Source: an uncultured Oscillospiraceae bacterium (GTDB lineage Bacteria > Bacillota > Clostridia > Oscillospirales > Oscillospiraceae). Taken from it: DNA of 43,400 nucleotides. Numbering within the stretch: position 1 is the stretch's first letter; every line of letters starts with the position of its first letter. Position numbers and translations under genes: made by a program. The notes beneath the pieces were generated by a model. It was not told the DNA's origin. It searched no databases and saw only the letters and a program-made list of their open reading frames with translations. Of this stretch, positions 11,031 through 43,305 are shown piece after piece. The stretch covers positions 1 through 43,400 of the forward strand of contig CANQRM010000023.1 of assembly GCA_947626265.1 (NCBI GenBank), read 5' to 3'.

Positions 11031-14000
11031 TTACCGGTCAGAGGGCCGGTGGGGTTTTCTTCTATGCCGCATGGCCAGGATAACCAGGCCGGCGGCGCAC
11101 AGGGTCAGCAGCAGCGCCCAAGGCTCGGGGGATATGCCGTCCCCCGTAGCGGGTGCGACGGGCTCGCCGGGCACGGGCGTGTAGAACGGCGGGGAGGTCG
11201 TCACGGGCGGCAGGGTAGGTCCAGGCGAACCGCTGGGTCCGGGCGAACCGCTGGGTCCGGGCGAACCGCTGGGTCCGGGCGAGCCGCTGGGCGCAGGCGA
11301 ACCGCTGGGCGCAGGCGAACCACTGGGCGCAGGCGAACCACTGGGCGCAGGCGAACCGCTGGGCGCAGGCGAACCACTGGGCGCAGGCGAACCGCTGGGC
11401 GCAGGCGAACCACTGGGCTTGTCATTGACCACTCTCGCCTCCACAGTCCCGCCACGGGGGATGGTCCCTGTCGCGCCGGAGAAACTTGTCGTATATCCGT
11501 TCTGGTCAGCCTGCTTCTCTGTCACCGTATAGGTAATACCCGATGGGAGGCCATTGGCCGTGCAGCTCTGCCCGCTTTTCAGCGTGAACTCAGCCACACC
11601 GGCATCAAAGTACATATCGCCGTAGCGGCCTGTGATTTGAGCGCCCAACTCGACCCGGAAACTCCAGTTTCTCTCTGTCTCTCCACCGCTGCCGGTGACG
11701 GTCTTGGTCACCCGCAGACTGCCGGTGCGTGGCGGGCCGGGCGGGTTGACAGGCGGGGGATCCTTGGAGTTGACGAATTCCGCCGCGGCCATGCCGCCGG
11801 GTATGATCTCTCCCGTGTTGCCGGTGGCGTTAGTGGTATAGCCGTCCGAGTTGGCCTCGGCCTCGGTCACGGTGTAGGTGATCCCGGCGGGCAGACCTTC
11901 GGCAGTCGCTGTCGCGCCGTGCTTCAGCGTAAACCTGGCCACGCCGTCGGCGAACGTCATATCGCCGTACACGCCGTTGATGGACGTGTCGCTCAGCGTC
12001 ACGGTGAAGTTCCAATCCTTCGTCGTGTCGCCGTCCGTGCCGGTGACGGTCTTAGTGACCTTCAGACCGCCGTTTTCGGTATTTTCGGTATAAGTGTTGG
12101 TGACGGTGACTTGCGTATCGCCGCCGACGGTGACAATGGCCTCGCCCTCGCCGGTGACGTTCAAGGTGTAGCCCGTCACTTCCGTTCCCGCGTCATCCTC
12201 CGTGACGGTGTACGTGCCTACATGCAGACCATTCACCGTCTCGCTGCCCGCACCGGTGATAGTGACCGTATGTTTGTATCCTTCGGGGCCGGTGATGTAG
12301 AAGGTAAATGTCTTTGCCTCCGCTTCTTCACCGCCGCCCACGATCGCTTTGGTGATGGTCAGATTGCCAAGCTCGCTCTTGGGCTTTTTATTGTTAAAAG
12401 TGGCTTCTGTCAGTTTGCCAGCGGTGATGGTCCCGGACGCGTTGCCGGCGTTCGTGCTGTAATCGTCCGAGTTGGCCTCGGCCTCGGTCACGGTGTAGGT
12501 GATCCCGGCGGGCAGGCCGGTAGCAGTCTTGCTCTCGCCGTGCTTCAGCTTAAACGTGGCCTCGCCGTTGGTGAATTGCATGCCGCCGAAGTCGCCGTTG
12601 ATGGTATTGTCGCCCAGCGTCACGGTAAAGTTCCAATCCTTCGTCGTGTCGCCGTCCGTGCCGGAGACGGTCTTGCTCACGGACAGATCACCGGTCTTGC
12701 GGGTGTTGGTGAACGCGGCCTCCGCCGTTTGGCCAACGCTGACGGTCCCGCTCGTATTATCGGGGCTGGAATCGTAGTTCGGGTCTGCCGTCACCTCTTC
12801 GACGGCATATTCCGTGCCGTCGGGCAGGCCCTTGATGGTGATAGACTGGCCGTGCTTGAGCGTGACCGTGGCGGTATAGCTGTCGCCATCAGGCGTGACA
12901 TCGATCGTTCCCTCGCTTCTGCTCTGGTCTATGGTGGGATAGCTCCCGGCCAGCTTTATGCCATCCGGAGGCCTCAGCGTGATCTTGAACTCCCATTCCT
13001 TTTCCGTTTCGCCCAGCGTACCATTCACGGCCTTGGAGACCGTCAGCTCCCCGGTCTTGAGGGTGTTCGTGAACTTGACCTCTTGTGTCGCTTCGACCTT
13101 GATATCGCCGTTGGTCGTGTTGTTGGTATCTTCACCTATTTTCGTCTCATAACCAGGTACAGATGTTTCCGTGATCGTATATTTTGTGCCCGCGGGCAGG
13201 TTATAGATGACCATGCGCTGGCCGTGCTTGAGGGTGACGTTCATGTCGTTAAGCTGCTTGACAATCATCGCCCCGCCATCACCTTCCGCGAGCTTCACTG
13301 TGCCATTGGACAACGCGACATCGTTCCCCACCGTATAGACCTCGCAGGCGAATTCATCGCCCACCTTGACGTTGTCCCCGGTCAGCTCGATCTTGAACTC
13401 CCAGTCACGGTCCTTCTCGCCGAAGTCGCTTACCTCTTTTTCCAGCGACAGCGAGCCGAATTCAAAGTAGTTGGTGACGGTGAAGCTGAATTGATCAACT
13501 TCAGTCTCATTTTCGTCTCCATATTTATCATCCGTCGGCACAATCGTCACATTGCTCGCGCCGCCGCTATCGATCTCCTCCAGCAGGAACTTGTAATTGT
13601 ACTTTTTTACCTCATCATTAGGTTCGGTAGGCACATGGATTCCAATACTTTCCTTATCGAGCCCCTCGATTTTTATCCAACCCGTGCCTTTCAGCTTGAG
13701 ATCGCAATAGATCCGTGCGTATTGTCCGGCATCAAGTCCGCCGTAATACGCCTCTTGCCCCTCCTCAACGGTCAAGGTTTCAACATGGAATTCCGTTCTA
13801 TCGCTGCCTTTGTCCGTTTGATAACTGACCGTTCCGGGCGACTTAAGCTGGCCATTAACGTTATTCTTGCTCTCCACATCGATGATGTTGAACCGGAATA
13901 TATATTCATGTTCATTCCTGAGATAATTACCCTTCTCGTCGGTCGCGCCCCTGACATTGACGTTCTTCGTCACGTTGATGTTGAACGTACCCGCGACGAC

Positions 14001-17000
14001 CTTGCCGTTGACCATCATGCCGCCGCCGCCGTATTTAGCGCTCTTCGTATCGTTGTCGGTGATGCGGACGGCGTAGCCGCCGCTGCCGCCGGCCGCCACG
14101 GTCTGGATGCCGGTGTCGGGGATGTGGGCCCGGAAGCCCACGGGGTTCAAATTGTCCTCGCCGCCGCTGGGGCCGAGGGCCGCCGGGGCGACGCCGCTGC
14201 GGATATTGGTCCAGTCATACTCGCCGGTGCGGGCCGTGCCGCCGGACAGGTCGGTCCAGTTGTAGTCCTGGCCGTCGGGGGTGGTGTCGCTGACATAGAG
14301 CTTGGCGGGGGTCTCGTGGTCGATGACCTCGTCATAGGGCACGGCCAGGATGTCCATGCCGCTGTCGCCGTTGCCGTAGATGGTGGCGCCGTGCTCTGGG
14401 TACAGGAAGACCTGGGCATTGGGGCACAGGGCGATGCCGTTGCCCACCGTCGTGCCGTCGTTGCCTCCATCCACATGGTTGCCGGTGATCAGCGCGTCCT
14501 GCATGTAGCAGGTGATGTTCTCGCCGATGTACACACCGCCGGTGTTATAGTGCTTCGTAGGATTCAGGTCGGACTCTTTGTAGTTGTCGAAGTTGGCGTT
14601 GCAGTGGTTGCCGATGATCTGTGCGGACTGAAGCAGCACCGTGCCGTAATAGTCAGCGCCCTTCCGGCGGACGGAGAACGCGCCCGCGTTCACGTCGGCA
14701 GTGTTGTTCTCAAACCTCGCGCTGCCTTTGACCGTCACCGTGCCGCCGTTCAAGTTGGCCCGGAACGCGCCGCCGGAGCTGCCGGAGCTGTTGCCGGTGA
14801 AGGTGCCGCCGTCGATGGTGATGTTGGAGTTCTCACCATCGCCGGGGAAATAGAGGCAGCCGCCGTCGCCGGTTTTGGCGGTGTTGTTCGTAAAGGTGCA
14901 GTTCTTGACCTGGATGTTGCTCTGGGGCGGGAAGCCGCGCCACACGCCGCCCTGGTTCTTGGCGTAGTTCCCGGTGAAGGTACTGCTCTCAAAGGTGAAC
15001 GTCGTGCCCTGGGCGTCCACCGCCGCATAGAAGCAGCCGCCGTTATTGTTGCTGCTGTTGTTCTCAAAAGTGCTGTTTTTGACTGTAAACTTGGAGTTGG
15101 GAACGTTATACTGTATGACGCCCGCGTTGTCGGTGGCTTTGTTGCCGCTGAAGGTCACTCTATCCACCAGGAATTCTTTGATGGCATCCGCGTTGTCCTT
15201 TGTGACGCAGACGCAGGGGCCTTTATTCGCTGTATTATTGATGAACTGTGTCCCGCCGCTGATCGTGAATCTGCCGTTTCCATTCGGCTCCTTCGCAGCG
15301 TTTGCCGCCTTATAGATGCCGCCCTCTTTGGCCGCGCTGTTGCCGCTGAACACAGCGCCGCTGATGTCGATGGCGGAGTTCTTGGAAGAGATGAAGGCGA
15401 TGGACCCATAGGCCATCGCAGTGTTGCCCGTAAAGGAGCCGCCCGTTATTGTCAGGGCGACCGTATCCGCGTCGATACCGGTGCTGAAAGCGCCGCCGCG
15501 CTGGGCGCTGTTGCCCGTGAACTGGGCGCTGCCGCCGATAGTGACCTGAGTGGAGGCCGCGCCGTCCACGTGGAGCGCCCCGCCGTAGGCCTGGCCGTCT
15601 GTGGCCGTGTCTGCCGTATTCTCGGAGAACGTACCGCCGGTTACCGACACGGTAGAATCGTAAGCGTAAACGCCGCCGCCGCAGATGGCGCTGTTGCCGC
15701 TGATCTCTCCGCCGGTCATATCAATGGAGCTGTTCACCATGAGGACAGCGCCGCCAAGGCCTTGCTTTCCGGCATTCGCACTGTTATAGGCGAAGCGGGT
15801 CCCGGTGCCATATGTTTTTATGGCTGCCGTCGTCTCATCTGTCGTCGTGGCGTTGCCACTGATCACGCCGCCATTGATATCAATAATGGAGCCGTCCAGA
15901 TACACCGCGCCGTAAGACTTGTTGTTCACCAGCGCCGCGCCCGGGTTCAGGGTGAGGGTCGAGCCGCCGGTGGCAGTCACGGTCCGGCCCAGGATATTGA
16001 GCGAGGCGTCCACTGTCACATTCACCAGGGTCAGGGATGCGCCATTGGTGAGGGTGAACATGTTCTCCGCCTCGCCGGACTTGGTCACGGTAAAGGGCGC
16101 GCCCTCGCCATAGGACTCGATCGTCACGACCTTGCCGTCGATGACCGCCTCGTTCAGGGCAACGTCCTGGGTCAGGCAGATGACGCCGCCGTTGGCCAGA
16201 TTCTCCAGCGCGGCCTCGATGGTGCCGGCAACTACACCCTCCATGCCCTCCGGGGCCGTGGGGACATAGACCACCTGCTTCGGGCCGACCGCGCGCCGCA
16301 CCAGGGCAGGACCCATCACAGAGAACGAGTTGACAGCAAACGTCACCGTGCCGTCGTCCGCCGTCGCCGGCTCCAGCTTCTCCACGGCGCCGTTGTCCAG
16401 GATATGTACCATGAACCGCTCCGTCACCATCTCCGGAGCCGCCTCGGGCTCGCCCACGCCGGGCTCGTCAAAGCTGGGGCCCTCCATGCCAGGCTGGGAG
16501 AGCGGGCCGTCCGCCAACCTGTCGTCCTCCCCGCCGCTGAGAAAAGCCGCAAAGGGGTCGGCGGGAAACTGCATACTCACAGTCACCAGGCCGGCAACCG
16601 GCTCTTTCCGGCTGCCGTCGGCCGCCGTGAAATAGACGTCATAGGGCAGGAAGTACAGCTCGTCGCCTGCGGTCAGGCCCAGCGTCTGCCACAGCGTGTC
16701 GTAGGCCTGGGTGTACTCCGCGGTGTCCTCGGCTATCTTGTCCGCGTGGAGCTGGGCATCCGCCGGGATGCCGCTTTCCGGAGCCGCCGCCGCGTTGACA
16801 GTCACGCCGTCACCGGCGCAGGCATAGCGCTGCTCCCCGGCAGTCTGCGGCTCGTCGGTGGCTTCCGGCTCGTCGGTGGCTTCCGGCTCGTCGGTAATTT
16901 CCGGCTCGTCGGTAGTTTCCGGCTCCCCGGTGGCTTCCGGTTCCTCCGTGACTTCCGGCTCCCCGGTGGCCTCCGGCTCCCCGGTGGCCTCCGGCACCTC

Positions 17001-17255
17001 GGTAGCTTCCGGCACCTCGGTGACTTCCGGTTCCCCGGTGGGTCCGCCGTCTTCCGTCTGATCCCCCGGCAGGGGATCGCCGATGGCCGGCTGCCCGTCC
17101 GGTTCAGGCGCCGTCTCCTGAGGCATGGCGGTCTGAGAAGGTTCTGGAGTCCCCGTCTCGCTTTCCTTCAAGGCCATGCCGGAAATCAGTCCCAGCACGA
17201 TGGAAAGGCACAAGACAAGTGCCAGCGCCCCAGATACTTTCCTGCTCTTTTTCAT
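11031..17255 (-). CDS. Giant sortase-anchored surface adhesin, beta-helix plus prealbumin-like repeats
   Basis: 2074 residues. Order: signal peptide (1-28); Glu/Pro/Thr repeat spacer (72-138); a globular region (150-320); a right-handed parallel beta-helix (about 345-960) with repeated GG-F-GN motifs such as GGTFTGNSS; a linker domain (1080-1260); six prealbumin/Cna-B-like domains (1266-1945), each with KT/SVSG, an LKHG strand and GLPAGITYTVTE; eleven PSGSP[A/G] wall-spanning repeats (1947-2013); PATGD (2035-2039), a hydrophobic helix and a RHRRK tail, a sortase-type sorting signal. GGGGAG precedes the ATG. No promoter points at it in the present orientation; the nearest strong one lies in an adjacent invertible segment facing away. 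Role: cell-surface adhesion or biofilm, inferred from architecture. Confidence 0.9.
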   Translation of the reverse strand: MKKSRKVSGALALVLCLSIVLGLISGMALKESETGTPEPSQTAMPQETAPEPDGQPAIGDPLPGDQTEDGGPTGEPEVTEVPEATEVPEATGEPEATGEPEVTEEPEATGEPETTDEPEITDEPEATDEPEATDEPQTAGEQRYACAGDGVTVNAAAAPESGIPADAQLHADKIAEDTAEYTQAYDTLWQTLGLTAGDELYFLPYDVYFTAADGSRKEPVAGLVTVSMQFPADPFAAFLSGGEDDRLADGPLSQPGMEGPSFDEPGVGEPEAAPEMVTERFMVHILDNGAVEKLEPATADDGTVTFAVNSFSVMGPALVRRAVGPKQVVYVPTAPEGMEGVVAGTIEAALENLANGGVICLTQDVALNEAVIDGKVVTIESYGEGAPFTVTKSGEAENMFTLTNGASLTLVNVTVDASLNILGRTVTATGGSTLTLNPGAALVNNKSYGAVYLDGSIIDINGGVISGNATTTDETTAAIKTYGTGTRFAYNSANAGKQGLGGAVLMVNSSIDMTGGEISGNSAICGGGVYAYDSTVSVTGGTFSENTADTATDGQAYGGALHVDGAASTQVTIGGSAQFTGNSAQRGGAFSTGIDADTVALTITGGSFTGNTAMAYGSIAFISSKNSAIDISGAVFSGNSAAKEGGIYKAANAAKEPNGNGRFTISGGTQFINNTANKGPCVCVTKDNADAIKEFLVDRVTFSGNKATDNAGVIQYNVPNSKFTVKNSTFENNSSNNNGGCFYAAVDAQGTTFTFESSTFTGNYAKNQGGVWRGFPPQSNIQVKNCTFTNNTAKTGDGGCLYFPGDGENSNITIDGGTFTGNSSGSSGGAFRANLNGGTVTVKGSARFENNTADVNAGAFSVRRKGADYYGTVLLQSAQIIGNHCNANFDNYKESDLNPTKHYNTGGVYIGENITCYMQDALITGNHVDGGNDGTTVGNGIALCPNAQVFLYPEHGATIYGNGDSGMDILAVPYDEVIDHETPAKLYVSDTTPDGQDYNWTDLSGGTARTGEYDWTNIRSGVAPAALGPSGGEDNLNPVGFRAHIPDTGIQTVAAGGSGGYAVRITDNDTKSAKYGGGGMMVNGKVVAGTFNINVTKNVNVRGATDEKGNYLRNEHEYIFRFNIIDVESKNNVNGQLKSPGTVSYQTDKGSDRTEFHVETLTVEEGQEAYYGGLDAGQYARIYCDLKLKGTGWIKIEGLDKESIGIHVPTEPNDEVKKYNYKFLLEEIDSGGASNVTIVPTDDKYGDENETEVDQFSFTVTNYFEFGSLSLEKEVSDFGEKDRDWEFKIELTGDNVKVGDEFACEVYTVGNDVALSNGTVKLAEGDGGAMIVKQLNDMNVTLKHGQRMVIYNLPAGTKYTITETSVPGYETKIGEDTNNTTNGDIKVEATQEVKFTNTLKTGELTVSKAVNGTLGETEKEWEFKITLRPPDGIKLAGSYPTIDQSRSEGTIDVTPDGDSYTATVTLKHGQSITIKGLPDGTEYAVEEVTADPNYDSSPDNTSGTVSVGQTAEAAFTNTRKTGDLSVSKTVSGTDGDTTKDWNFTVTLGDNTINGDFGGMQFTNGEATFKLKHGESKTATGLPAGITYTVTEAEANSDDYSTNAGNASGTITAGKLTEATFNNKKPKSELGNLTITKAIVGGGEEAEAKTFTFYITGPEGYKHTVTITGAGSETVNGLHVGTYTVTEDDAGTEVTGYTLNVTGEGEAIVTVGGDTQVTVTNTYTENTENGGLKVTKTVTGTDGDTTKDWNFTVTLSDTSINGVYGDMTFADGVARFTLKHGATATAEGLPAGITYTVTEAEANSDGYTTNATGNTGEIIPGGMAAAEFVNSKDPPPVNPPGPPRTGSLRVTKTVTGSGGETERNWSFRVELGAQITGRYGDMYFDAGVAEFTLKSGQSCTANGLPSGITYTVTEKQADQNGYTTSFSGATGTIPRGGTVEARVVNDKPSGSPAPSGSPAPSGSPAPSGSPAPSGSPAPSGSPAPSGSPAPSGSPGPSGSPGPSGSPGPSGSPGPTLPPVTTSPPFYTPVPGEPVAPATGDGISPEPWALLLTLCAAGLVILAMRHRRKPHRPSDR
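11217..11417 (-). repeat. 18-bp tandem repeat encoding PSGSPA/PSGSPG
   Basis: Eleven in-frame 18-bp units, grouped as seven Ala-type then four Gly-type copies. The near identity makes copy-number change by slippage likely; it would vary the wall-spanning stalk length without a frameshift. Confidence 0.9.
16842..17042 (-). repeat. 18-bp tandem repeat encoding [G/D/E/V]EPEAT units
   Basis: About eleven degenerate 18-bp units give an acidic Pro/Thr spacer just behind the signal peptide of the adhesin. Confidence 0.85.
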
Positions 17256-17364
17256 GCTCGGTCTCCCCTTCTCAACTGGTTACCATCAATAAAGGCAGCA
17301 AGGTACAGCCCGCGCGGTCTCTCGACTCCTAATGACCACTGGGCAGCGCCTCCCCCGCCTGACT

Positions 17365-17385
17365 ACATAATCAGTATTACGTAGT
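17365..17385 (+). repeat. Inverted recombination site, left (IR-L)
   Basis: 21 bp, matching the reverse complement of 17651-17671 at 20 positions. It is itself a core site: arm CTACATAAT, spacer CAGT, arm ATTACGTAG (17364-17385). This is the layout of a tyrosine-recombinase crossover site. Confidence 0.88.
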
Positions 17386-17570
17386 AATAGACGGCCTTGA
17401 AGGGTGCAAAAAAGAACCGGCTATCCATTCACCGTGAAGGCAAATTCGTGGCCGGTTTGTCGGCATATGCACAAATCTTTGTCATTCTGGGCATAGCTGA
17501 TTTGAGCACCCTTGCTTTAGCGTGCCCATTTTTCTGGTAAAATGCACAAATTTGTCACTGAGAATGCTGC

Positions 17571-17580
17571 GGGGGGGGGG
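17571..17580 (+). repeat. Homopolymer G10
   Basis: Ten consecutive G, ending 9 bp before the -35 hexamer of the invertible promoter. Tracts of this length are prone to slipped-strand change. Confidence 0.95.
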
Positions 17581-17589
17581 TATTCGGGG

Positions 17590-17618
17590 TTGACAATAGC
17601 GCTTCTACACGCTATAAT
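17590..17618 (+). promoter_or_regulatory. Consensus promoter inside the invertible segment
   Basis: TTGACA (17590-17595), a 17-bp spacer and TATAAT (17613-17618), matching the sigma-A consensus at all 12 positions. In the present orientation it transcribes toward 17690, antisense to the recombinase gene. Confidence 0.92.
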
Positions 17619-17650
17619 CTGAGCGTCATTTAATATGTTATTGTTCTTTG

Positions 17651-17671
17651 ACTACATAATACTGATTATGT
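17651..17671 (-). repeat. Inverted recombination site, right (IR-R)
   Basis: Mate of IR-L with one mismatch. Its spacer ACTG is the reverse complement of the IR-L spacer CAGT, so recombination between the two would invert rather than delete the DNA between them. Confidence 0.88.
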
Positions 17672-17689
17672 GGTTATCAAATTATCCGT

Positions 17690-18526
17690 TTACATCAGCA
17701 GCGGCAGGCGTTCGATCTGCCGCTGCTGTTCCGTTCCTGTGCGGCTTGTGTAGATGCGGGTGGTGTCGATGCTGGCGTGTCCCAGGATGTCTGCCAGCCG
17801 AACGATATCTTTGTATACTTTGTAATATGTCCGTGCGAACAGGTGCCGCAGGTTGTGGGGAAACACCTTCCCCAGTTCCACTCTCGCCAGCACCGCCAGC
17901 CGCTTCATGCTTTTCCAGATGTTGCTCCTGTCCAGCGGCTTACCGGTCCGCGTTACAAATACCTGTCCGCTGTGGATCCTCCGTTTCCTGCAATAGTTCT
18001 CCAGCGTCCTGCACAGCTTCCTGGGTATCAGGATCACCCGTATCCGCCCCTTGCTGCGGATCTCCGCTTGACCGCGCCGCAGGCTCTCCACCGTGATGGC
18101 CCGCACCTCGCTGACCCGGATGCCTGTGGCACATATCGTCTGTACCAGCATGGCAAGGCGTTCGTTTCCTCTGGCCTTGGCCGCTTGAAGCAGCTTTTCA
18201 TAATCCTGCTGTGACAGTTCCCTTTTTCCGTCCGAGAATGTCGTCCGCTGCACCTTCAGAAAACGCAGCTTCCACTCCGGACGCCCGGCAAACTCCAGAA
18301 ACCGGTTCACTGCCGCCAGCATAGAATTGACGCTGCTGGCCGCATATCCCCGCTTCTGCAGGTCCTGCTTGAAGGAAATGAGCGTGCTCTTATCCCCCAC
18401 GCTCCCGCCGCAGAACAACCGCAGCTACTCTACATCGCGTGAGTATTTGCTGACCGTCGTCTCACTGCATTCCCGCTCATGCAGATACATACAAAATGAC
18501 GTTATTGATTCCCTGCTTATCAGCAT
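17690..18526 (-). pseudogene. Tyrosine recombinase (probable invertase) with amber codon 34
   Basis: The gene starts at the ATG at 18526 behind a perfect AAGGAGG and would encode about 278 residues. Codon 34 is TAG (18425-18427), between SKYSRDVE and LRLFCGGS; it is one base from CAG or GAG. Downstream the frame is intact and all catalytic boxes are present: GIRVSEVRAIT, HNLRHLFA, LGHAS and nucleophile Tyr in TRIYTSRTG. It may be dead, may reinitiate at TTG 18418 (giving 242 residues without the start of the core-binding domain), or may reflect a sequencing error. Its end lies 19 bp from IR-R, so it is the likely enzyme for the adhesin switch. Confidence 0.8.
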
Positions 18527-34650: not shown

Positions 34651-34679
34651 TTGACAGACAAGGCGGCTTACTTTAAAAT
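34651..34679 (+). promoter_or_regulatory. Promoter of the prenyltransferase-like gene
   Basis: TTGACA (34651-34656), a 17-bp spacer, TAAAAT (34674-34679). The start codon follows 41 bp later. Confidence 0.8.
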
Positions 34680-34719
34680 GGGGCCAGTTCTATTCTATTC
34701 ATGGAAAGGCGGTGCTCTC

Positions 34720-35586
34720 ATGGCGGACTGGCATGAGAAACTGGATGGATTCGTGGCACAACACAGCGAGGACTATGCCCAAAAGCGGGTGGATTATCTG
34801 GGCGTCAACCTCGGCGGGGAAGAGCCGCTGTTCAAGATATACTACAAAAATAACTACACCAGCGCCCGCAGCGAGGGGCGGCAATCCTCCCTCATTGACC
34901 TTTTGCGGGAGCGGGATATGATAAACTTTCTCACCCTGGCGGAGGACACCGGCGGCTGCCAGCGGTACCGCTACGACATCGGCCTGAAAAACCGCACTGA
35001 CGAGAATATGGAGGCCCTTTTCGCCTGGCTGAAGGAACACGTCGCCGTGTTCTCCCAGCGGGAGGACGAAATCAGAAAGCTGGCCGCTATGCGGGTATAC
35101 AGTGAGGAGGAATTCCGTCTGGCCGCCATGCACTTTCTGGGCTTCATCGACCAGGCCGGCCAGGTCACCGCCCTGAAATGCCACTATCTCTGCTGGATGC
35201 ATAAGGACCTCTCCTCCCTGCGGGGCCATTTCCCCGACGACTACTATCTGTCCTGTCTGGAGCAAAGCGGCATACCCGTCTTTCAGCGTCTCTGCCCTCT
35301 GGTCCGGGACGTGCTCGGCCGCTGCGGCGGGCACGTGTTCATGGCGGGGACGGACTACTGGCTCACCGGGGAGCGAAAGTACAAAATTTACGTCATCGAC
35401 CCGGTGTTCCTCTACCAGGGTCTGGCAGAGGTGTTCGGGAAGGAACAGGACCCCCGGCTGCTCCGGCAGCTTGAAGAGCTGATGGCCTGGGACGACGCCC
35501 GCCCTCGGTTTTACTGCGTGGGACTGGCCCTGGCCCTGGACGACCGGGACCGGCTGACCATCAATTTCTATTACCTGGAGACATAA
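34720..35586 (+). CDS. Possible ABBA-fold prenyltransferase (unrecognised family)
   Basis: 288 residues from the ATG at 34720 (AAGGCGG upstream). No signal peptide. The protein seems built of four or five repeats of a beta-hairpin plus helix: VDYLGVNLGGEEPLFKIYY (residues 24-42), RYRYDIGLKNR, VTALKCHYLCWM, AGTDYWLTGERKYKIYVI and LALALDDRDRLTINFYY. G-x-D/N...K-x-Y strand pairs repeated around a barrel are the hallmark of ABBA prenyltransferases, including the cyanobactin PatF/TruF type (about 290-320 residues). It faces an operon that contains idi, which makes the allylic donor. I do not recognise the family by direct similarity; the fold call is pattern-based inference. Confidence 0.45.
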   Translation: MADWHEKLDGFVAQHSEDYAQKRVDYLGVNLGGEEPLFKIYYKNNYTSARSEGRQSSLIDLLRERDMINFLTLAEDTGGCQRYRYDIGLKNRTDENMEALFAWLKEHVAVFSQREDEIRKLAAMRVYSEEEFRLAAMHFLGFIDQAGQVTALKCHYLCWMHKDLSSLRGHFPDDYYLSCLEQSGIPVFQRLCPLVRDVLGRCGGHVFMAGTDYWLTGERKYKIYVIDPVFLYQGLAEVFGKEQDPRLLRQLEELMAWDDARPRFYCVGLALALDDRDRLTINFYYLET

Positions 35587-35590
35587 TGAT

Positions 35591-35850
35591 GCTCTCCCAG
35601 TCGGGAGAGCTCTGCTTGGAGGGCCCCCTTGTGTAAAGGGGGCTGTCGCCGCCGACGGGGCCCCCACGCGAGCCCAGCGAAGCGGGTCGCGTGGGGAAGA
35701 GGAGGAGCCGCGGGCCATTCGAGCTTTGCCGCTTGCGGCAAAGGGAGACCTGGCAGCGCGTGCTCCAACGAGGTGACTGATGGATTGTCGTTTTACAACC
35801 CCTCCGAGCGGCTATCGCCGCCCACCTCCCCTTGCACAGGGGAGGCATAT
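35591..35850. repeat. Hairpin-rich intergenic repeat element
   Basis: A palindrome, GCTCTCCC/GGGAGAGC (35591-35610), is followed by a mosaic of short inverted motifs: CCCCCTT...AAGGGGG, CCACGCGA/TCGCGTGG, GCTTTGCCG/CGGCAAAG and CTCCCCTTG/CAGGGGAG. There is no ORF. This looks like the GC-rich intergenic repeats common in Oscillospiraceae-type genomes. Confidence 0.6.
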
Positions 35851-35853
35851 CAT

Positions 35854-35893
35854 ATGACAAGGAGCTGCCGCGGATGCGGCAGCCCCTTGTCAT
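35854..35893. terminator. Bidirectional terminator after peptide B3
   Basis: ATGACAAGG pairs with CCTTGTCAT and, inside it, CTGCCGC with GCGGCAG. The hairpin lies 10 bp past the B3 stop and serves the two convergent units. Confidence 0.8.
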
Positions 35894-35902
35894 AGTTTGG
35901 AA

Positions 35903-36145
35903 TTACACTCCAAAAAAGGTGGAGCCCATCCATTCCTTGACTACGTCAACGGCACCTTGGACGCCCCCGGCGACAGCCTCCAGGTCGTCTTCGGACAGTT
36001 CGCCGGTCACGGAGTTCTTCACCCGGTCCAACAGGGCCTGCGCCTGCTCCAAGGTCAGTTCCTTGCCGTGCTCCTTCGCAATGGCGACCACTTCTTCAGG
36101 AGTCTTTACCCCCCCCAGGAGCTCTTTCAGCATTTTCTCGTTCAT
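35903..36145 (-). CDS. Nif11-type leader peptide B3 (80 aa)
   Basis: Full-length Nif11-like leader: MNEKMLKELLGGVKTPEEVV, then a helical stretch and GELSEDDLEAVAGG, the double-glycine cut site. The predicted core is 19 residues, VQGAVDVVKEWMGSTFFGV, with one Trp, two Phe and no Cys. AGGAG precedes the ATG. The 18 bp upstream of the gene are a near copy of those upstream of B1. A run of eight G occurs in codons 10-13. It is last in the operon after idi. In other bacteria Nif11 leaders guide RiPP-modifying enzymes. Confidence 0.85.
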   Translation of the reverse strand: MNEKMLKELLGGVKTPEEVVAIAKEHGKELTLEQAQALLDRVKNSVTGELSEDDLEAVAGGVQGAVDVVKEWMGSTFFGV

Positions 36146-36192
36146 GGTGTGTCTCCTTCTTAAAATGTATTTGAAACGCGCTTCGCGTCGTT

Positions 36193-36759
36193 TCACTGAT
36201 TTATATACTGCTCGGCCAATTTGAGCGCCGGGGGGAACCATGCGGCGAAGTCCTCCGGCTGCCGGGTCATCCAGGTGTGCAGTTCCGCCATGGTCACCAA
36301 CCGGAGCTCGGCGATCTCCGACCGGTCGAAGGCCAGGGCGTCCGCGCCCACCGCCTCCGCCGGGCTGTACAGGAACACGTGGTCTATCTCATGCTCGCCC
36401 ACGTCCCCCTGGCGCATCTCATAGAGGAAGCTGCCGCAGGGACGGAACCCCTCCCCGGCCTCAGCCGCGATGGGAAGGCTTACATGCAGGCCCAGCTCCT
36501 CCCCCAGCCGTTGGTTCAGACACGCCTCCATGGTCATGCCCTTCCGGGGATGGGAGCAGCAGGCGTTGGCCCAGAGGCCCCCGGAGTGGTACTTTCCCAG
36601 GGCCCGCCGCTGCAGGAGCATGCGGCCTGTTTGCTTATCGTAGATAAAGATGGAGAACGCCCGGTGCAGCAGTCCCTTCCGGTGGACCTCCATTTTTTCG
36701 CCATAGCCCACTATCTCGTCCCGGTCGTTCACCAGGAGGATGTCCCGCTCACCGCTCAT
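36193..36759 (-). CDS. idi: Isopentenyl-diphosphate delta-isomerase, type I
   Basis: 188 residues, a Nudix-fold enzyme that interconverts isopentenyl and dimethylallyl diphosphate. Metal and catalytic residues match the E. coli pattern: H26, H32, C68 in ANACCSHP, H70, and E122/E124 in GEHEID. The ATG at 36759 follows AAAGGAAAC. It lies inside an operon of Nif11-type peptide precursors, 51 nt after B2 and 47 nt before B3, and faces a possible prenyltransferase gene. This setting suggests a dedicated DMAPP supply rather than general isoprenoid metabolism. Confidence 0.92.
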   Translation of the reverse strand: MSGERDILLVNDRDEIVGYGEKMEVHRKGLLHRAFSIFIYDKQTGRMLLQRRALGKYHSGGLWANACCSHPRKGMTMEACLNQRLGEELGLHVSLPIAAEAGEGFRPCGSFLYEMRQGDVGEHEIDHVFLYSPAEAVGADALAFDRSEIAELRLVTMAELHTWMTRQPEDFAAWFPPALKLAEQYINQ

Positions 36760-36810
36760 GGCCCTGTTTCCTTTTGTTATCCATGGCGTTCCTCCTGTTC
36801 CCGTCCCACA

Positions 36811-37080
36811 TTACATGAGCGATGCCAAAGCTTTCACGACGTCCGGGCCAAATTTTTTGATTTGTTCGTCTACATAACCCCAGTCCATCCCGCCGCCGGC
36901 GACGCCGGCCAGCTCCTCGTCGGTCAGCTCGCCCTTCTTTCCGCGGAGGGCTTCCTCCAGCTTCGCGAGCTTTTCCGCCGTCAGCTCCAGGCCGCACTCC
37001 TTCGCGGCGGCCTCCACCTCCTCCGGGCTCTTGGCTTGCTTCGCCTTTTCCACGAATTCCTCGATCTTTTTCTTCTCCAT
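36811..37080 (-). CDS. Nif11-type leader peptide B2 (89 aa)
   Basis: The leader is rich in Lys/Glu/Ala helices (EEFVEKAKQAKSPEEVEAAA; LTAEKLAKLEEAL) and ends GELTDEELAGVAGGG, typical of the Nif11 class. The core of about 25 residues, MDWGYVDEQIKKFGPDVV and then KALASLM, has Trp, Tyr and Phe but no Cys, so lanthipeptide-type crosslinks are not expected. AAAGGAG precedes the ATG. It lies 23 nt after B1 and upstream of idi. An aromatic residue just after the cleavage site would be a plausible prenylation site. Confidence 0.85.
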   Translation of the reverse strand: MEKKKIEEFVEKAKQAKSPEEVEAAAKECGLELTAEKLAKLEEALRGKKGELTDEELAGVAGGGMDWGYVDEQIKKFGPDVVKALASLM

Positions 37081-37103
37081 GTTCGTTCTCCTTTCCGCGC
37101 ACG

Positions 37104-37421
37104 TTATTTCCCGCCCCAGCCTTCGGTCACTTTATATTTTTTCCTTTCGTCCGTGACGCACTTGGAACACAAGTACATCCCGGAGGAGCCGCCGTTGCCG
37201 AAATCGATCGTATATAATATAATGGGTGCAACGGACTCATCACTTTTATGGCAAATGCCGCATGGGATCACCCTGGCCGATGAGCTTTCCCATGGCCATT
37301 CCCAGCCACCGGCCACCCCGTCCAGCGCCTCGTCGGACAGCTCCCCATTTTTGGCGATGGCCAGGACCTCTTCAGGGGACTTACCCCCCCCCGCCAGCTT
37401 TTTCAGCATTTCCTCATTCAT
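37104..37421 (-). CDS. Nif11-type leader peptide B1 (105 aa), Trp- and Cys-containing core
   Basis: The leader is a shortened Nif11 form, MNEEMLKKLAGGGKSPEEVL then AIAKNGELSDEALDGVAGG, lacking the middle helix found in B3. The core of 66 residues begins WEWPWESSS and holds CGIC and CSKC, again a zinc-knuckle-like pair as in the locus A peptides. It ends KVTEGWGGK. GGAGGG precedes the ATG at 37421; the longer upstream frame is rejected because it runs through the promoter. First gene of the operon, behind the LytTR-type operator. A G9 tract lies in codons 10-13. Confidence 0.85.
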   Translation of the reverse strand: MNEEMLKKLAGGGKSPEEVLAIAKNGELSDEALDGVAGGWEWPWESSSARVIPCGICHKSDESVAPIILYTIDFGNGGSSGMYLCSKCVTDERKKYKVTEGWGGK

Positions 37422-37476
37422 TGTTGTTTCTCCCTCCAAAAATGTATTTGAAATGCACTTGCTCATCTCATGTTCC

Positions 37477-37512
37477 GTCTCTTTATACGTTTCACCGAGG
37501 CAAAAGGGCCAA
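37477..37512 (-). repeat. Leader block shared with the peptide A operon (copy 2)
   Basis: 36 bp, 32 identical to 806-841. Here it lies in the mRNA leader, about 25-60 nt downstream of the -10 element. Confidence 0.7.
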
Positions 37513-37537
37513 CAAACTTTCGTACTTTGCTCATTTA

Positions 37538-37613
37538 ACTTTATCATTTTACGCCGGTATCTTCAACGCGCCATCCCTGACGTTTTCGCGGTCAAACATG
37601 ACTTTTGCGAAGT
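37538..37613 (-). promoter_or_regulatory. LytTR-type operator and promoter of the Nif11/idi operon
   Basis: The 39-bp operator (37575-37613) matches 1854-1892 at 37 positions, including both direct repeats. After the same 8-bp gap come -35 TTGAAG (37561-37566), a 17-bp spacer and -10 TAAAGT (37538-37543). Both promoters have ATGA just before the -10. The geometry puts the operator directly against the -35, as expected for an activator. Confidence 0.82.
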
Positions 37614-37704: not shown

Positions 37705-40700
37705 TTACTCTCCGGCGGGCTCCGCCGCCAGGTCCGCCAGCCGCTGGGCGGCTCTGTCAAGCCCCGACGCCGCAGCCTGTTCATAGAACTGCCGGGCCAT
37801 ATCCAGGTCCTTGTCCACGACCTTGCCGCGCTCGTACGCCATGCCCAGTATCTCCATGGCATAGTACTCCCCCTGCTCTGCCGCGCCGGTCAGCAGCTCC
37901 AAAGCCTTTTCCGTGTTCTGCTCCACGCCCTGGCCGGCAAGATAGCAGAGGCCCAGCATATACATGGCTTCCCGGTCGTTGTCCCCGGCGGCGCCGGCCA
38001 GCAGTTCCGCGGCCCTTTCATAGTCCTGCTCCACGCCATGGCCATTGAGGTACAGCATGCCAAGGGTCCGCTTATCGGAGATGTCCAGTTCGTCCCCGGC
38101 CTCCCACGCCAGCAAAAGCTCCGCGGCCCGGCCGAAGAGCTCTTCGGCCCTCGCCTCGTCCTTTTCCGCGCCCTCGCCGTTTTTGAAAAAAGCGCCCAGC
38201 TCGACCATGGCCTCCACATTCTCGTCGTCCGCCTCCAGGGTCTTTTCATACCACTCCACGGCCTTGGCGTCGTCCCGCTCCACCGCGCCGTAGCCGTACT
38301 CATAGAACTGGGCCAGCTGACACATGCCGGAGCTGTCGCCGGCCTCCGCCGACTTTTCGGCCAGCTCGAAGGCCTTGCTCTCGTCCCGCTCCACGCCCAG
38401 GCCGCAGGCGTACAGCCAGCTCAGGTTCGCCGCGGCCATCGAGTCGCCTTGGTCCGCGGCCTGGGCGTAATACTCCGCCGCCCTGGCGTAATCACGCTCC
38501 ACGCCGTCGCCGTATTCGTAGAGGCAGCCCAGGTTGTTGAGCGCGCTGACATCGCCCTGCTCCGCCGCCTTCTCGTACCACTCCCTGGCCATGCCATAGT
38601 CCTGCTCCACGCCCTCGCCGTAGTCGTACATCACGCCCACGTTGAAGGCCGCGCCGGCGTTGCCCTGCTCCGCCGCCTTTTTGTACCACTCCATCGACTT
38701 GGCGTAATCCTGTTCCACGCCCTCGCCGGCATAGTACATATAGCCCAGATACTCCCAGGCGTCGGGATAGTCCTGCTCCGCGGCCTGGCTGAAGAGATCG
38801 AAGGCCTTTTCAAGGTCCTGCTCCACCCCCAAGCCGAAATAATACATACAGCCCAGGTTGTGCATGGCCTCGGGGATGCCGTGCTCCGCCGCCTGGGCAT
38901 AATACGCCGCGGCCTGGGCTTTGTCCACGTCCACGCCCTTGCCGAAGTAATACATGTCGCCCATGTCCTCCGCCGCCCGCCAATAGCCGTCCTCCACGGC
39001 GGCGGCAAGCAGCGCCGCAGCCCGCTCGTCGTCCTCTTCCAGGCCGTAGCCGAAATCATAAAGCTTGCCCAGCACCCGCTTTTCGGCGGCGGTGAGGTCC
39101 TCCTCCGCCTTTTCCGTGAGCTGGGCGGCCAGGCTCTCGCGAAGCTCCGCCGCCTTTGCCTCGTCCAGCTCCACGCCCTTTCCGCTCTTATAGAGCCTTG
39201 CCAGGGCATACATAGCCTCCGCCTGATCCTGTTCGGCGGCCTTTTCATACCATTCCGCCGCCTGAGCCGGGTCCACATCCACCACACCGTGGCCGTTTTC
39301 ATAAAAATCGCCCACCGCGTACTGGGCGTCGGGATCGCCGTCCTCCGCGGCTTGGGTGTAATACCCGAAGGCCCTGGCCTTGTCAAGCTCACGGCCGCCG
39401 GCGTAGTTATAGGCGTCGGCCACAATGTTCATGGCGTCAGTGTCGCCCAGGTCCGCCGCCTTCTCGTAATAGTCCAGGGCCTTGGCATAGTCCTGTTCAA
39501 CACCCTTGCCATACCTGTACATATAGCCCAGGTTGTACATGGCATCGGGGACGCCCTGTTCCGCCACCTGGCTGTAGAGCTCAAAGGCCTTGGCGTAGTC
39601 CTGTTCCACGCCCTCGCCGATGTAGTAAAGAGTGCCCAGGTTGAATATGGCCTCGGGGACGCCCTGTTCCGCCGCCTGGCTGTAGAGCTCAAAGGCCTTG
39701 GCGTAGTCCTGTTCCACGCTCTGGCCGTCAGAGTAAAGATTGCCCAGGTTCACCATGGCATTCGTGTCGCCCAGAGCCGTGGCCTTTTCATACCACTGGA
39801 CCGCCTGGGCTGTGTCCTGCTCCACGCCGTCGCCGCGCTCATACATCAGGCCCAGGTCGAACATCGCGCCGGCGAAGCCCAGCTCCGCCGCCCGGGCGTA
39901 ATACTCCACGGCCTTGGCATAGTCCTGTTCCACGCCCTGGCCATGCTTGTACATATAGCCCAGGTTGTACATGGCCCTGGGGACGCCGTGCTCCGCGGCC
40001 TGGCGCGTATAGTCTATTGCCTTTTCGTAGTCTACGTCCACGCCGTCGCCGTAGTAATAGGAAGCGCCCATCTCATTCACCGCCGGCCAGTCGCCCGCTT
40101 CCGCCGCGGCGGAGAACAGCTCAAAGGACCTTGGCTTATCCTCCTCCACGCCGGCGCCGAACAGGTACATGCTGCCCAGCACCCACTTTTCGGCGGCGGA
40201 GAGGTCGTCCGCCGCCGCCTTTTCCATGAGCTGCGCGGCAAGGCTTTCGTAAAGTTCTTTCGCCCTTGCCTCGTCCTTTTCCACGCCCCGGCCCTCTTCA
40301 TACATTACCGCCAGGGCGTAGGCGGCCTCCGCTTGGTCCTGCTCCGCGGCCTTTTCAAGCCACTCGATCGCCTGGGCCTGGTCTGTATCCACAACGCCGT
40401 AGCCGTTGGCATAGAAATTGCCCACCATATACATGGCGTCGGCGTCGCCGTCCTCCGCGGCCTGGGTGTAGTATTCAAAGGCCTTGGCCTTGTCCAGCTC
40501 CACGCCGTCGGCGTAGTTGTACATGTCTCCCAGGGCCGTCATGGACCACATGTCGTCCATGGCCGCGCCCTGCTCATAGAGCTCCTTGGCCTTGGCCAGG
40601 TCCTGCTCCACGCCGGCGCCAGTCCGGTAGACCCGGGCCATGTAGCCGTAGGCCTCCGGCACGCCGTGGGCCGCCGCGTCTTCCAGCATCTCCAGGCCCT

Positions 40701-43305
40701 TGGCCTCATCCTTTTCCGTGCCATAGCCCAGGATGTACATCATGCCCGCATGGCACTCCGCCTCAAAGATGTCGTCCTCCGCCGCCGCAGTGAAGTACGC
40801 AAGGGCCTTTTCATCGTCCTGTTCCACGCCCTCGCCGTTTTCGTAGAGGTAGCCCAGCACCAGCGCGTTGTAGCTGTAGTCCTCGTCCTCCGAGGCGGCC
40901 TCAAAGGCCTGGGAGAAGAGCTCCGCAGCCTTGTCCTTATCCATCTCCACGCCCTGGCCCTGCTCATAGAGCCAGCCCAGGTACAGCATGGCCTCAGGAT
41001 CGCCCTGATCTGCGGCCTTCTGGTACCACTCCGCGGCCTTTGCATAATCCACGTCCACCACGCCGTAGCCGTAGTCATAGTACCGGCCCAGGGAGGTCTG
41101 GCCGTCCACATAGCCCAGCTCCGCCGACTGGGTGTAGAGCTCAAAGGCCTTTTCCTTGTCCATCTCTACGCCCATGCCGTAGTCATAGAACCAGCCGTCG
41201 TTCTCCAAAGCGTAGCCCAGCTCATCGTCGTTCTGGGGGCGGGTCATGGTCTGCTCATAATACTCCCGCGCCTTGGCGTAGTCCTTCTCCCCTCCCATGC
41301 CGTACATGTACATGTCGGCCAGGTAGAAGCAGACGTCGACAGCGCCCAGAGCCCCGCCCTGTTCCAGCAGCTCCCGGGCCTTTTCATAGTCCTGCTCCAC
41401 GCCGGTGCCGTCCACATAGGCGTGGCCCAGATAGTAGTATGCTTCGGGCACGCCGCGCTCCGCCGCGTCCTCCAGCATCTCCAGACCCTTGGCCTCGTCC
41501 TTCTCTGTGCCAAGACCCCTGAGATACATCGAACCCGCATGGCACTCCGCCTCAAAGATATACCTCTCCGCCGCGGCGGTGAGATACGCCAAGGCCTTTT
41601 CATAGTCCTGTTCCACGCCGGTGCCGTCCATGTAAAGGTAGCCCAGCACCAGCTGGTTATAGCTGTAGTCCTCGTTCTCCGAGGCGGCCTCAAATGCCTG
41701 GGCATAGAGCTCGTCGGCCTTGGCCTCGTCCTGCTCCACGCCACAGCCCTGCTCATAGAGCCAGGCCAGGTACACCATGGCCTCCGCGTCGCCCTCCGCC
41801 GCGGACTCATCGTACAGCTCCGCCGCCTTGGCATAGTCTATGTCCACCACACCGTAGCCATAGTCATAGAACCGGCCAAGAGAGGTCCGTCCGTCCGTCC
41901 AGCCCAGCTCCGCGGACTGGGTGTAAAGCTCAAAGGCCTTTTCCTTGTCCATATCCACGCCGAAACCGTACTCATAGAACCAGCCGTCCATCTCCGCGGC
42001 GTAGCCCAGGGACCGGTCGCCCAGTTCCGTGCGGGTCAGGGCCTCCTCATAGCCCGCTCTCGCCCGGGGATAGTCTATCTCCACGCCATAGCCGTACATA
42101 TACATGTCGGCCAGATAGAGGCAGACGTTAGGCTCATCCAGGGCCTCGGCCTCATCAAACAGCTCCAGAGCCTTGCTGAAGTCCTGCTCCACGCCGATGC
42201 CGTAGCAGTACATGGCGCCCAGCGACACCATGGCCTCGGGCATGTTCATGTCCGCGCACTCGTTCAAAAGCTCCAGGGCCTTGTCATATTCACCCGTTTC
42301 ATAATAGCAAAGGGCCAGGTCATACATGCCGTCCGGGTCGCCCAGCTCCGCGGAGGCGGTTAGGTATTCCATCGCCTTGTCGGCGTCTTCCTCCACACCC
42401 AGGCCGTACTTATAAATATACCCCAGGAGGAAATAGCCGTTGTAATACTGGGTGTCATCGCCTTCCTCGGTTAGGGTCTCAAGCGCCTGGCTGTAGAGCT
42501 CATCGGCTTTGGCCTCGTCCTGCTCCACGCCCAAACCGCTGGCGTAAAGGTCGCCCAGGAAGATCATGCCGCCCGCGTCGCCCTGGTCCGCGGCCTTCCG
42601 GTACCACTCCGCCGCCTGAGCATGGTCTATGTCCACTACGCCGTATCCAAAGTCATAAAACCGGCCCACATACTGCTGGGCGTAGGCGGAGCCGGCCTCC
42701 GCCGCCTGCGTGAACAGTTCCAGAGACTTCTCAAAGCTCTGCTCCGTGCCCCGGCCGAAGAAATAGGACTCCGCCAGGTTCTGGGCGCACTGGGTCTTGA
42801 ATTGCCCCTCGGCGCATTCCTCCACGCCTTTGGTCCAGCACTCCGCGGCCTTTGCATAGTCCTGCTCCGTGCCCTCGCCATTGAAGTAGGCAACGCCCAG
42901 GTTGCCGTAGGCGTCGGGGGTCAGCTCCGCCGCCGCGGTGAACAGCTCAAAGGCCCTGGCCTCGTCCTGCTCCACGCCTCTGCCCATGGCGTACATCGCA
43001 CCCAAGCGGAGCATGCTGTCACCGTCGCCGCCGTCCGCGGCTTTTTGGTACATCTCCGCGGCCTTGGCCAGGTCCTCCTCCACGACGTCGCCGCTGGCGT
43101 ACATGTCGCCCAGCGCCGCGCTGGCGGGGGCATAGTCCTTCTCCGCCGCCTTGGTCAGCAGCTCCTCGCCTTTGGCGGTATCACCACTGTCCAGGGCCTC
43201 CATGGCCTCGTCGTACATCTCCTCGGGCTTTTTTCCGCAGCCCGCGCACAGTCCCAGCAGCATGGCCGCCGCCAGGATGAATGCCAATACCTTCCGCAGC
43301 TTCAT
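37705..43305 (-). CDS. Giant Sel1-repeat lipoprotein
   Basis: 1866 residues. A lipoprotein signal ends in GLCAGC (Cys23). The rest is an almost unbroken array of about 50 Sel1-like repeats of ~36 residues, with consensus GVEQDYAKAxEWYxKAA and then EQGDxxAMxNLGxMY. Sel1 repeats form alpha-alpha superhelices that bind proteins or peptides. Internal duplications are large: residues about 393-655 repeat at 656-918 (offset about 263), and about 930-1130 repeat at 1300-1500 (offset 370). It is very acidic and should sit on the outer face of the membrane. The ATG overlaps the stop of the upstream gene as ATGA. Partner and role are unknown. Confidence 0.92.
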   Translation of the reverse strand: MKLRKVLAFILAAAMLLGLCAGCGKKPEEMYDEAMEALDSGDTAKGEELLTKAAEKDYAPASAALGDMYASGDVVEEDLAKAAEMYQKAADGGDGDSMLRLGAMYAMGRGVEQDEARAFELFTAAAELTPDAYGNLGVAYFNGEGTEQDYAKAAECWTKGVEECAEGQFKTQCAQNLAESYFFGRGTEQSFEKSLELFTQAAEAGSAYAQQYVGRFYDFGYGVVDIDHAQAAEWYRKAADQGDAGGMIFLGDLYASGLGVEQDEAKADELYSQALETLTEEGDDTQYYNGYFLLGYIYKYGLGVEEDADKAMEYLTASAELGDPDGMYDLALCYYETGEYDKALELLNECADMNMPEAMVSLGAMYCYGIGVEQDFSKALELFDEAEALDEPNVCLYLADMYMYGYGVEIDYPRARAGYEEALTRTELGDRSLGYAAEMDGWFYEYGFGVDMDKEKAFELYTQSAELGWTDGRTSLGRFYDYGYGVVDIDYAKAAELYDESAAEGDAEAMVYLAWLYEQGCGVEQDEAKADELYAQAFEAASENEDYSYNQLVLGYLYMDGTGVEQDYEKALAYLTAAAERYIFEAECHAGSMYLRGLGTEKDEAKGLEMLEDAAERGVPEAYYYLGHAYVDGTGVEQDYEKARELLEQGGALGAVDVCFYLADMYMYGMGGEKDYAKAREYYEQTMTRPQNDDELGYALENDGWFYDYGMGVEMDKEKAFELYTQSAELGYVDGQTSLGRYYDYGYGVVDVDYAKAAEWYQKAADQGDPEAMLYLGWLYEQGQGVEMDKDKAAELFSQAFEAASEDEDYSYNALVLGYLYENGEGVEQDDEKALAYFTAAAEDDIFEAECHAGMMYILGYGTEKDEAKGLEMLEDAAAHGVPEAYGYMARVYRTGAGVEQDLAKAKELYEQGAAMDDMWSMTALGDMYNYADGVELDKAKAFEYYTQAAEDGDADAMYMVGNFYANGYGVVDTDQAQAIEWLEKAAEQDQAEAAYALAVMYEEGRGVEKDEARAKELYESLAAQLMEKAAADDLSAAEKWVLGSMYLFGAGVEEDKPRSFELFSAAAEAGDWPAVNEMGASYYYGDGVDVDYEKAIDYTRQAAEHGVPRAMYNLGYMYKHGQGVEQDYAKAVEYYARAAELGFAGAMFDLGLMYERGDGVEQDTAQAVQWYEKATALGDTNAMVNLGNLYSDGQSVEQDYAKAFELYSQAAEQGVPEAIFNLGTLYYIGEGVEQDYAKAFELYSQVAEQGVPDAMYNLGYMYRYGKGVEQDYAKALDYYEKAADLGDTDAMNIVADAYNYAGGRELDKARAFGYYTQAAEDGDPDAQYAVGDFYENGHGVVDVDPAQAAEWYEKAAEQDQAEAMYALARLYKSGKGVELDEAKAAELRESLAAQLTEKAEEDLTAAEKRVLGKLYDFGYGLEEDDERAAALLAAAVEDGYWRAAEDMGDMYYFGKGVDVDKAQAAAYYAQAAEHGIPEAMHNLGCMYYFGLGVEQDLEKAFDLFSQAAEQDYPDAWEYLGYMYYAGEGVEQDYAKSMEWYKKAAEQGNAGAAFNVGVMYDYGEGVEQDYGMAREWYEKAAEQGDVSALNNLGCLYEYGDGVERDYARAAEYYAQAADQGDSMAAANLSWLYACGLGVERDESKAFELAEKSAEAGDSSGMCQLAQFYEYGYGAVERDDAKAVEWYEKTLEADDENVEAMVELGAFFKNGEGAEKDEARAEELFGRAAELLLAWEAGDELDISDKRTLGMLYLNGHGVEQDYERAAELLAGAAGDNDREAMYMLGLCYLAGQGVEQNTEKALELLTGAAEQGEYYAMEILGMAYERGKVVDKDLDMARQFYEQAAASGLDRAAQRLADLAAEPAGE

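Follow-up and report, generated by a model that had tools for sequence, protein, structure and literature searches.

We analyzed a 43,400-nucleotide stretch of contig CANQRM010000023.1 (GCA_947626265.1) from an uncultured Oscillospiraceae bacterium, here called the window, and studied the locus at positions 34651 to 37613. Judging from structure models and gene context, this locus probably belongs to a ribosomally synthesized and posttranslationally modified peptide (RiPP) system whose precursor peptides, with Nif11-type leaders, would receive an isoprene unit from a small prenyltransferase of ABBA fold. The minus strand carries, in this order, the precursor genes P0005 and P0004, a gene for a type I isopentenyl-diphosphate isomerase (Idi), and the precursor gene P0002. 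The gene for a 288-amino-acid protein, the predicted prenyltransferase (PT), lies on the plus strand and runs toward these four. We computed the predicted fold, gene adjacency, co-occurrence, a shared upstream element, and the lengths and frames of homopolymeric tracts. A sequence-only reading of the window had placed all five genes at the same positions and proposed a prenylated RiPP. The locus is confirmed as it was then described, and it stands out beyond chance because of synteny, co-occurrence, and purifying selection on the 288-amino-acid gene. The interpretation itself is supported, as neither the fold nor the co-occurrence, the two computable tests that could have refuted it, went against it.

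The PT gene (34720 to 35586, plus strand) is preceded by a sigma-70-like promoter, read from the sequence at 34651 to 34679 (TTGACA at 34651 to 34656, 17 bases, and TAAAAT at 34674 to 34679). In the AlphaFold2 (AF2) model of its product, ten antiparallel strands, grouped in five alpha-alpha-beta-beta units, form a barrel, and the modeling makes an ABBA fold very likely. Fold searches matched KgpF and PatF, as well as FgaPT2, CdpNPT, NotF, CymD, and TleC (7 to 13% identity). A relative that was folded separately likewise came out as ABBA by fold searches, and a BFVD search gave two matches without names, below 0.001. At the sequence level, the protein had no NCBIfam match at an E value of ≤1 and none in the PDB; in Pfam it matched no prenyltransferase family, only DUF494 (E = 0.087, below that family's cut-off). 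In an alignment of 10 PT sequences (A2), the residues K39/Y41, R82/R84/Y85, K153/H155/Y156, K220/K222/Y224, and N282/Y284 are invariant and lie on or beside strands 2, 4, 6, 8, and 10 of the AF2 model. The repeated G-x-D/N...K-x-Y pairs that had first drawn attention to the protein are G28-x-N30...K39-x-Y41 and G210-x-D212...K222-x-Y224, both invariant in the 10 sequences and on predicted strands. The ratio of nonsynonymous to synonymous substitution rates (dN/dS) of the gene was 0.17 to 0.38 in eight pairs, which corresponds to purifying selection. The PT copy of genome G012 (locus L020), whose open frame is chimeric, was excluded from alignments A2, A4, and A6, and the G014:C22 sequence, whose frame continues to residue 330, was trimmed at residue 290. 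Degraded or partial prenyltransferase copies were seen at L020 868-1757 (G012) and L023 6638-7021 (G009); the latter fragment was not counted among the PT loci.

A barrel of this kind could also be noncatalytic and bind leaders as a chaperone or regulator. The lack of sequence similarity to known enzymes would fit such a role, and the activity of PT is a prediction only. The diphosphate-binding and tyrosine-shield layout of TleC is described in PMC4786772, and the invariant residues K39, Y41, R82, R84, Y85, K153, Y156, K220, K222, Y224, and Y284 resemble it. A noncatalytic protein would also leave the co-occurrence with Idi, described below, unexplained. We therefore regard this alternative as very improbable and read the protein as a prenyltransferase.

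The likely substrates are the adjacent peptides. P0002 (35903 to 36145, minus strand) and P0004 (36811 to 37080, minus strand) scored 33.4 and 34.5 bits against the NCBIfam Nif11-leader model TIGR03798 (cut-off, 32.3). P0005 (37104 to 37421, minus strand) reached 12.5 bits, under the cut-off. Its first 23 residues, a poly-G Nif11-type start, match the precursor model built here (E = 1.1e-6), but a shortened double-glycine leader and a core (WEWPWE...) with two CxxC pairs follow; P0005 is thus a hybrid rather than a clear-cut Nif11 precursor, a point on which the sequence-only reading needs correction. The Trp motifs WEWPWE, MDWGY, and KEWMG are present in the three cores as had been reported. 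Predicted cores start after VAGG (VQGAVDVVKEWMGSTFFGV in P0002; GMDWGYVDEQIKKFGPDVVKALASLM in P0004), and the leaders in the window contain the L(X)4L motifs LSEDDL, LTDEEL, and LSDEAL. The P0004 core recurs with one difference next to idi in genome G027 (L049).

The precursor model gave 35 matches, 30 of which made loci; together with P0005, 31 were examined, and the other four were left out. L070, which is Nif11-like and has no GG, was excluded from the core counts. Trp is present in 28 of 30 cores and in 25 of 27 distinct cores, versus 7.4 expected with an assumed Trp frequency of 1.2%, and 23 of the 27 have exactly one. Cys occurs in 3 of 30. Trp is the best candidate for the prenyl acceptor, and a plausible one; Tyr and others are possible.

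The genus was represented by 35 genomes; relatives of PT turned up in 6 of them, and type I Idi in exactly the same six. The precursor model matched eight genomes, the six with PT plus G034 and G021 (one match each). The gene set thus recurs in relatives, a check that the sequence-only reading had called for. The overlap between PT and Idi has a P value of 6e-7 if the genomes, which are related, are treated as independent. Among the 13 best-quality genomes, Idi occurred in 3 of 3 with PT and in 0 of 10 without it (P = 0.0035). On a marker tree covering 30 of the 35 genomes, PT falls into two clades, with 3 changes versus 5.6 in shuffles. G034, the sister of G012, has neither PT nor Idi; its single precursor match is out of frame and lies upstream of a gene that matches, by eye, the gene that comes after idi, precursor, and PT in G012.

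Beyond the genus, an order-wide search of 394 genomes gave a convincing PT match only in the window's own genome; a partial match (E = 0.008) was taken as chance. A pattern-based scan of genome contigs (84,980 species) returned eight PT loci, all from uncultured Oscillospiraceae of "Lapin" isolates. "Lapin" is French for rabbit, from which we infer a rabbit host. No PT was found in viral contigs or plasmids.

The Idi gene lies at 36193 to 36759 (minus strand), and the sequence-only assignment to type I Idi held. The protein scored 101.8 bits against TIGR02150, just under the cut-off of 105.8 that its relatives in G033, G014, and G009 exceed, and 53.7 bits against the NUDIX model PF00293 (cut-off, 21.1). 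It aligns with the solved Idi 2icj at CCSHP and GEHEID. The genome search found no second copy. In many bacteria, Idi is part of the general supply of isoprenoids, and a housekeeping enzyme placed among precursors by accident has to be considered here as well. IspH was found in 33 of the 35 genomes, so the genus most likely uses the methylerythritol phosphate route, in which Idi is not essential, and no type I Idi was found in the 29 genomes outside the six with PT. Five of the seven idi genes of the genus are beside Nif11 genes, and two share a cluster with double-glycine peptides and an NHLM exporter pair (one of the seven is truncated where its contig ends; a fragment of 48 residues was omitted). 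Two idi genes, both in G009, directly follow the shared upstream element. Six strong idi matches outside the genus had no Nif11-type or PT-like neighbor in the stretches examined (3.2 kb in one case); ten weaker matches (43 to 53 bits) were left out. An accidental position is accordingly very improbable. Dimethylallyl diphosphate (DMAPP), which Idi would supply, is a plausible donor.

Two further features of idi neighborhoods were read by eye. In L138 (G116, another family), one of the six strong matches outside the genus, idi (6498-7016) is next to a gene read as a UbiA-like membrane prenyltransferase and to several radical-SAM genes. Beside the clusters of idi and NHLM exporter lies a gene for a 432-amino-acid protein resembling an alcohol acetyltransferase/condensation domain (L046 6799-8097 in G033; L047 6900-8198 in G014).

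At all 11 PT loci, a Nif11-type gene lies within about 320 bp, at several different chromosomal sites; at three of them this gene is out of frame. Seven of the 10 PT genes listed are preceded by a TTGACA box and then a TTTAARRT-like box, and the remaining three (L021 to L023) follow a precursor gene instead. In these three loci, a terminator-like hairpin stands between precursor and PT gene; it could yield more precursor than enzyme. In four genomes, a PT locus sits between the same two flanking genes. In G009 and G012, which have PT elsewhere, and in 11 genomes without PT, the upstream and downstream flanking genes lie near each other and no PT separates them; in the 13 further genomes of the tree that lack PT, the examined flank had no match to the upstream flanking gene.

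The closest fold matches of PT act on Trp, indoles, or cyclic dipeptides, so the enzyme might prenylate a small aromatic molecule or free Trp, with the neighboring Nif11 peptides modified otherwise. This seems very unlikely in light of the Nif11-type gene at every PT locus and the co-occurrence of precursors and PT across genomes. Neighbor lists read by eye, without a family-model search, showed no other modification enzyme recurring beside the PT loci, and no lanthionine-cyclase homologue (LANC_like) was found in any of the eight genomes searched. We thus favor prenylation of the peptides themselves. The NHLM exporter was rejected as a specific partner of PT: it exceeded the cut-off in 13 of the 35 genomes, including only 4 of the 6 with PT.

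Next, we looked at the regions upstream of the precursors. The sequence GTATAAAG occurs in 13 of 31 of them, and the window carries the element as CGTATAAAGAGACGG at 37475 to 37489 (minus strand), upstream of the precursor and idi genes. The pattern CGTATAAAGARACNG had 11 sites in this genome and 46 sites in 8 of 11 genomes searched, and the reversed control had none. At the 40 sites that were read, with classes assigned by eye, the next gene encoded a leader peptide in 32 cases (10 Nif11-type and 22 other), Idi in 2, a STAS-like protein in 2, and something else in 4. The 32 leader peptides include one with DG instead of GG and three out-of-frame copies reading as 12 to 13 residues. A palindrome, GAAACGaCGCG...CGCGTTTC, stands just before the start sites of many precursors; upstream of P0002 it reads GAAACGaCGCGAAGCGCGTTTC (36173 to 36194, minus strand). 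Short peptides with double-glycine leaders, the majority of which have CxxC-like Cys pairs in the core, form a family that shares the CGTATAAAGARACNG element (L142 to L179; 37104 to 37421 in the window).

Several observations weigh against a PT-based peptide system with its own Idi. PT has no detectable sequence similarity to known prenyltransferases in Pfam, NCBIfam, or the PDB, its structure models were built from only nine sequences, and the model of the relative was confident in only 2 of 5 runs. Its residues could not be superposed on a solved active site. All PT relatives come from one genus and represent few independent events (the 3 changes on the tree). Three of the six PT-positive genomes are <90% complete, the PT of G012 appears degraded, and G034, the informative negative, is 82% complete, so that loss is uncertain there. 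An NHLM ABC1 exporter over the cut-off was not found in G009 or G012. Trp is absent from 2 of 30 cores, and the other double-glycine peptides behind the element carry it in 13 of 19 (the 22 peptides minus 3 near-duplicates), a marginal contrast with 25 of 27 (P = 0.05). The element pattern was drawn from Nif11 upstream regions, which makes the 10 Nif11 genes among the 32 circular and leaves the 22 others and the idi sites as independent; one of the two idi sites had already been seen before the pattern search.

Part of the precursor genes carry homopolymeric tracts. A run of 7 to 10 G lies in the leader, near codons 9 to 13, in 11 of the 31 Nif11-type precursor genes. In the window, P0002 has 8 G (36109 to 36116, minus strand; C on the plus strand) and P0005 has 9 G (37384 to 37392, minus strand), both in frame. 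Of the tract-bearing genes, four are in frame and seven are out of frame precisely at the run, staying open past it to the end of the core; all 20 genes without a run are in frame. This pattern suggests, unless it is due to assembly error, that phase variation of precursors by poly-G runs is possible. The alternative, that the frame differences are assembly errors or dead genes, is a serious contender, though somewhat less likely than not. The genomes are draft assemblies, metagenome-assembled by title, as many as 7 of the 11 tract-bearing copies are out of frame, and constraint beyond the tract is weak in 2 of 6 sequence pairs (dN/dS of about 0.7). Five of the pairs have one or both members out of frame, and their dN/dS beyond the run was 0, 0.23, 0.30, 0.71, and 0.73; by our reading, the two highest values come mainly from divergent cores. 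The value of 0 belongs to two out-of-frame copies from different genomes, with five synonymous and no nonsynonymous differences, and 0.23 also to an out-of-frame pair. All seven frame breaks sit at the tract. Moreover, G/C runs of at least 8 are rarer than a first-order model predicts (7 versus 41 in 273 kb of examined loci), yet five of the seven are in these leaders, a count favored by the choice of loci around PT and idi genes. In the Creative Commons-licensed PMC literature, we found no paper on phase variation with Nif11 or with homopolymeric runs in bacteriocin precursor peptides; papers were listed for slipped-strand phase variation and bacteriocins, and we make no claim of priority.

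Many dispersed precursors for few enzymes are also found in prochlorosin-type systems, which have a lanthionine synthetase where the present system has a prenyltransferase. ComX is a bacterial peptide with a prenylated Trp. Its counterpart enzyme class differs: ComQ is like a trans-isoprenyl-diphosphate synthase and not ABBA (PMC13290415). The DMATS/indole prenyltransferases FgaPT2, CdpNPT, NotF, CymD, and TleC act on small molecules. The cyanobactin prenyltransferases PatF, KgpF, and PagF are likewise ABBA proteins of ~290 residues acting on RiPPs; they work without a leader, according to PMC12715784, and no sequence similarity to PT was found. The nearest parallel comes from the same source. 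MppC of Moorena producens, an ABBA prenyltransferase that puts a geranyl group on a Trp of the core, cannot do without the Nif11-like leader of MppE and the L(X)4L motif within it (PMC12715784). A soluble enzyme predicted to be of ABBA type, a Nif11-like leader with L(X)4L, and a core Trp are all found here as well. The sequence-only proposal that a Nif11 leader guiding a prenyltransferase would be a new RiPP type does not hold, as Nif11-guided prenylation is already published and the principle is not new. The MppE core is macrocyclized by the lanthionine synthetase MppM (PMC12715784), in contrast to the absence of LANC_like matches and the rarity of Cys here. The present system further differs in its many dispersed precursors, its linked Idi, and an enzyme matching no family model.

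As far as our searches show, the following is new: an ABBA subfamily that no family model matches, a system in which no lanthionine cyclase was found, the linkage of Idi by gene order, element, and co-occurrence, and the dispersed, possibly phase-variable precursors. No paper on ribosomally synthesized peptides and a prenyltransferase in Oscillospiraceae was found in the Creative Commons-licensed PMC literature. The further-reaching proposal is evenly balanced in our view: prenylation would be the sole dedicated modification, with a new ABBA subfamily and a co-regulated Idi acting on dispersed Nif11 precursors, several of them switched singly by poly-G, so that each cell would make its own combination of peptides.

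From these data, we infer how the enzyme acts, which residue accepts the group, and how long the donor is, together with shared control, export, and switching, along the following lines. The leader would dock on the enzyme by its Nif11 part and its L(X)4L-VAGG region, and a side chain of the core, most likely that of the single Trp, would enter the beta-barrel. There, Lys/Arg and Tyr residues on the even-numbered strands would hold the diphosphate from which a dimethylallyl (or geranyl) group is transferred. Type I Idi, seemingly controlled together with the precursors, would supply the DMAPP. Cleavage after GG and export of the product would fall to a C39-type exporter, which is probably the NHLM pair in genomes that have it. 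With one to three prenyltransferases, each genome would modify several precursors encoded at different places on the chromosome, and some of these may be switched on or off individually by poly-G runs in their leaders.

Other features of the window were noted in passing. A 1,866-amino-acid protein of Sel1-like repeats, read by eye (37705 to 43305), adjoins the operon, and the leader-peptide clusters in L018, L023, and L049 also have large repeat proteins of a similar kind beside them. Farther away, 30-nucleotide inverted repeats (17362 to 17391 and 17645 to 17674; 87% complementary, 253 nucleotides apart) flank a run of 10 G and a promoter-like TTGACA...TATAAT. Beside them are a gene read as a tyrosine recombinase (17690 to 18418, minus strand) and one for a 2,074-amino-acid surface-like protein (11031 to 17255, minus strand). 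By its sequence layout, the segment at 17362 to 17674 is a candidate invertible promoter.

If the proposed system is real, leader-guided peptide prenylation would extend to gut Oscillospiraceae, with an ABBA enzyme subfamily invisible to family models and an isoprenoid-supply enzyme recruited beside a peptide system. RiPP precursors controlled by slippage would be a further possible outcome, and an enzyme that a leader directs to linear Trp peptides would be useful as a lipidation tool.

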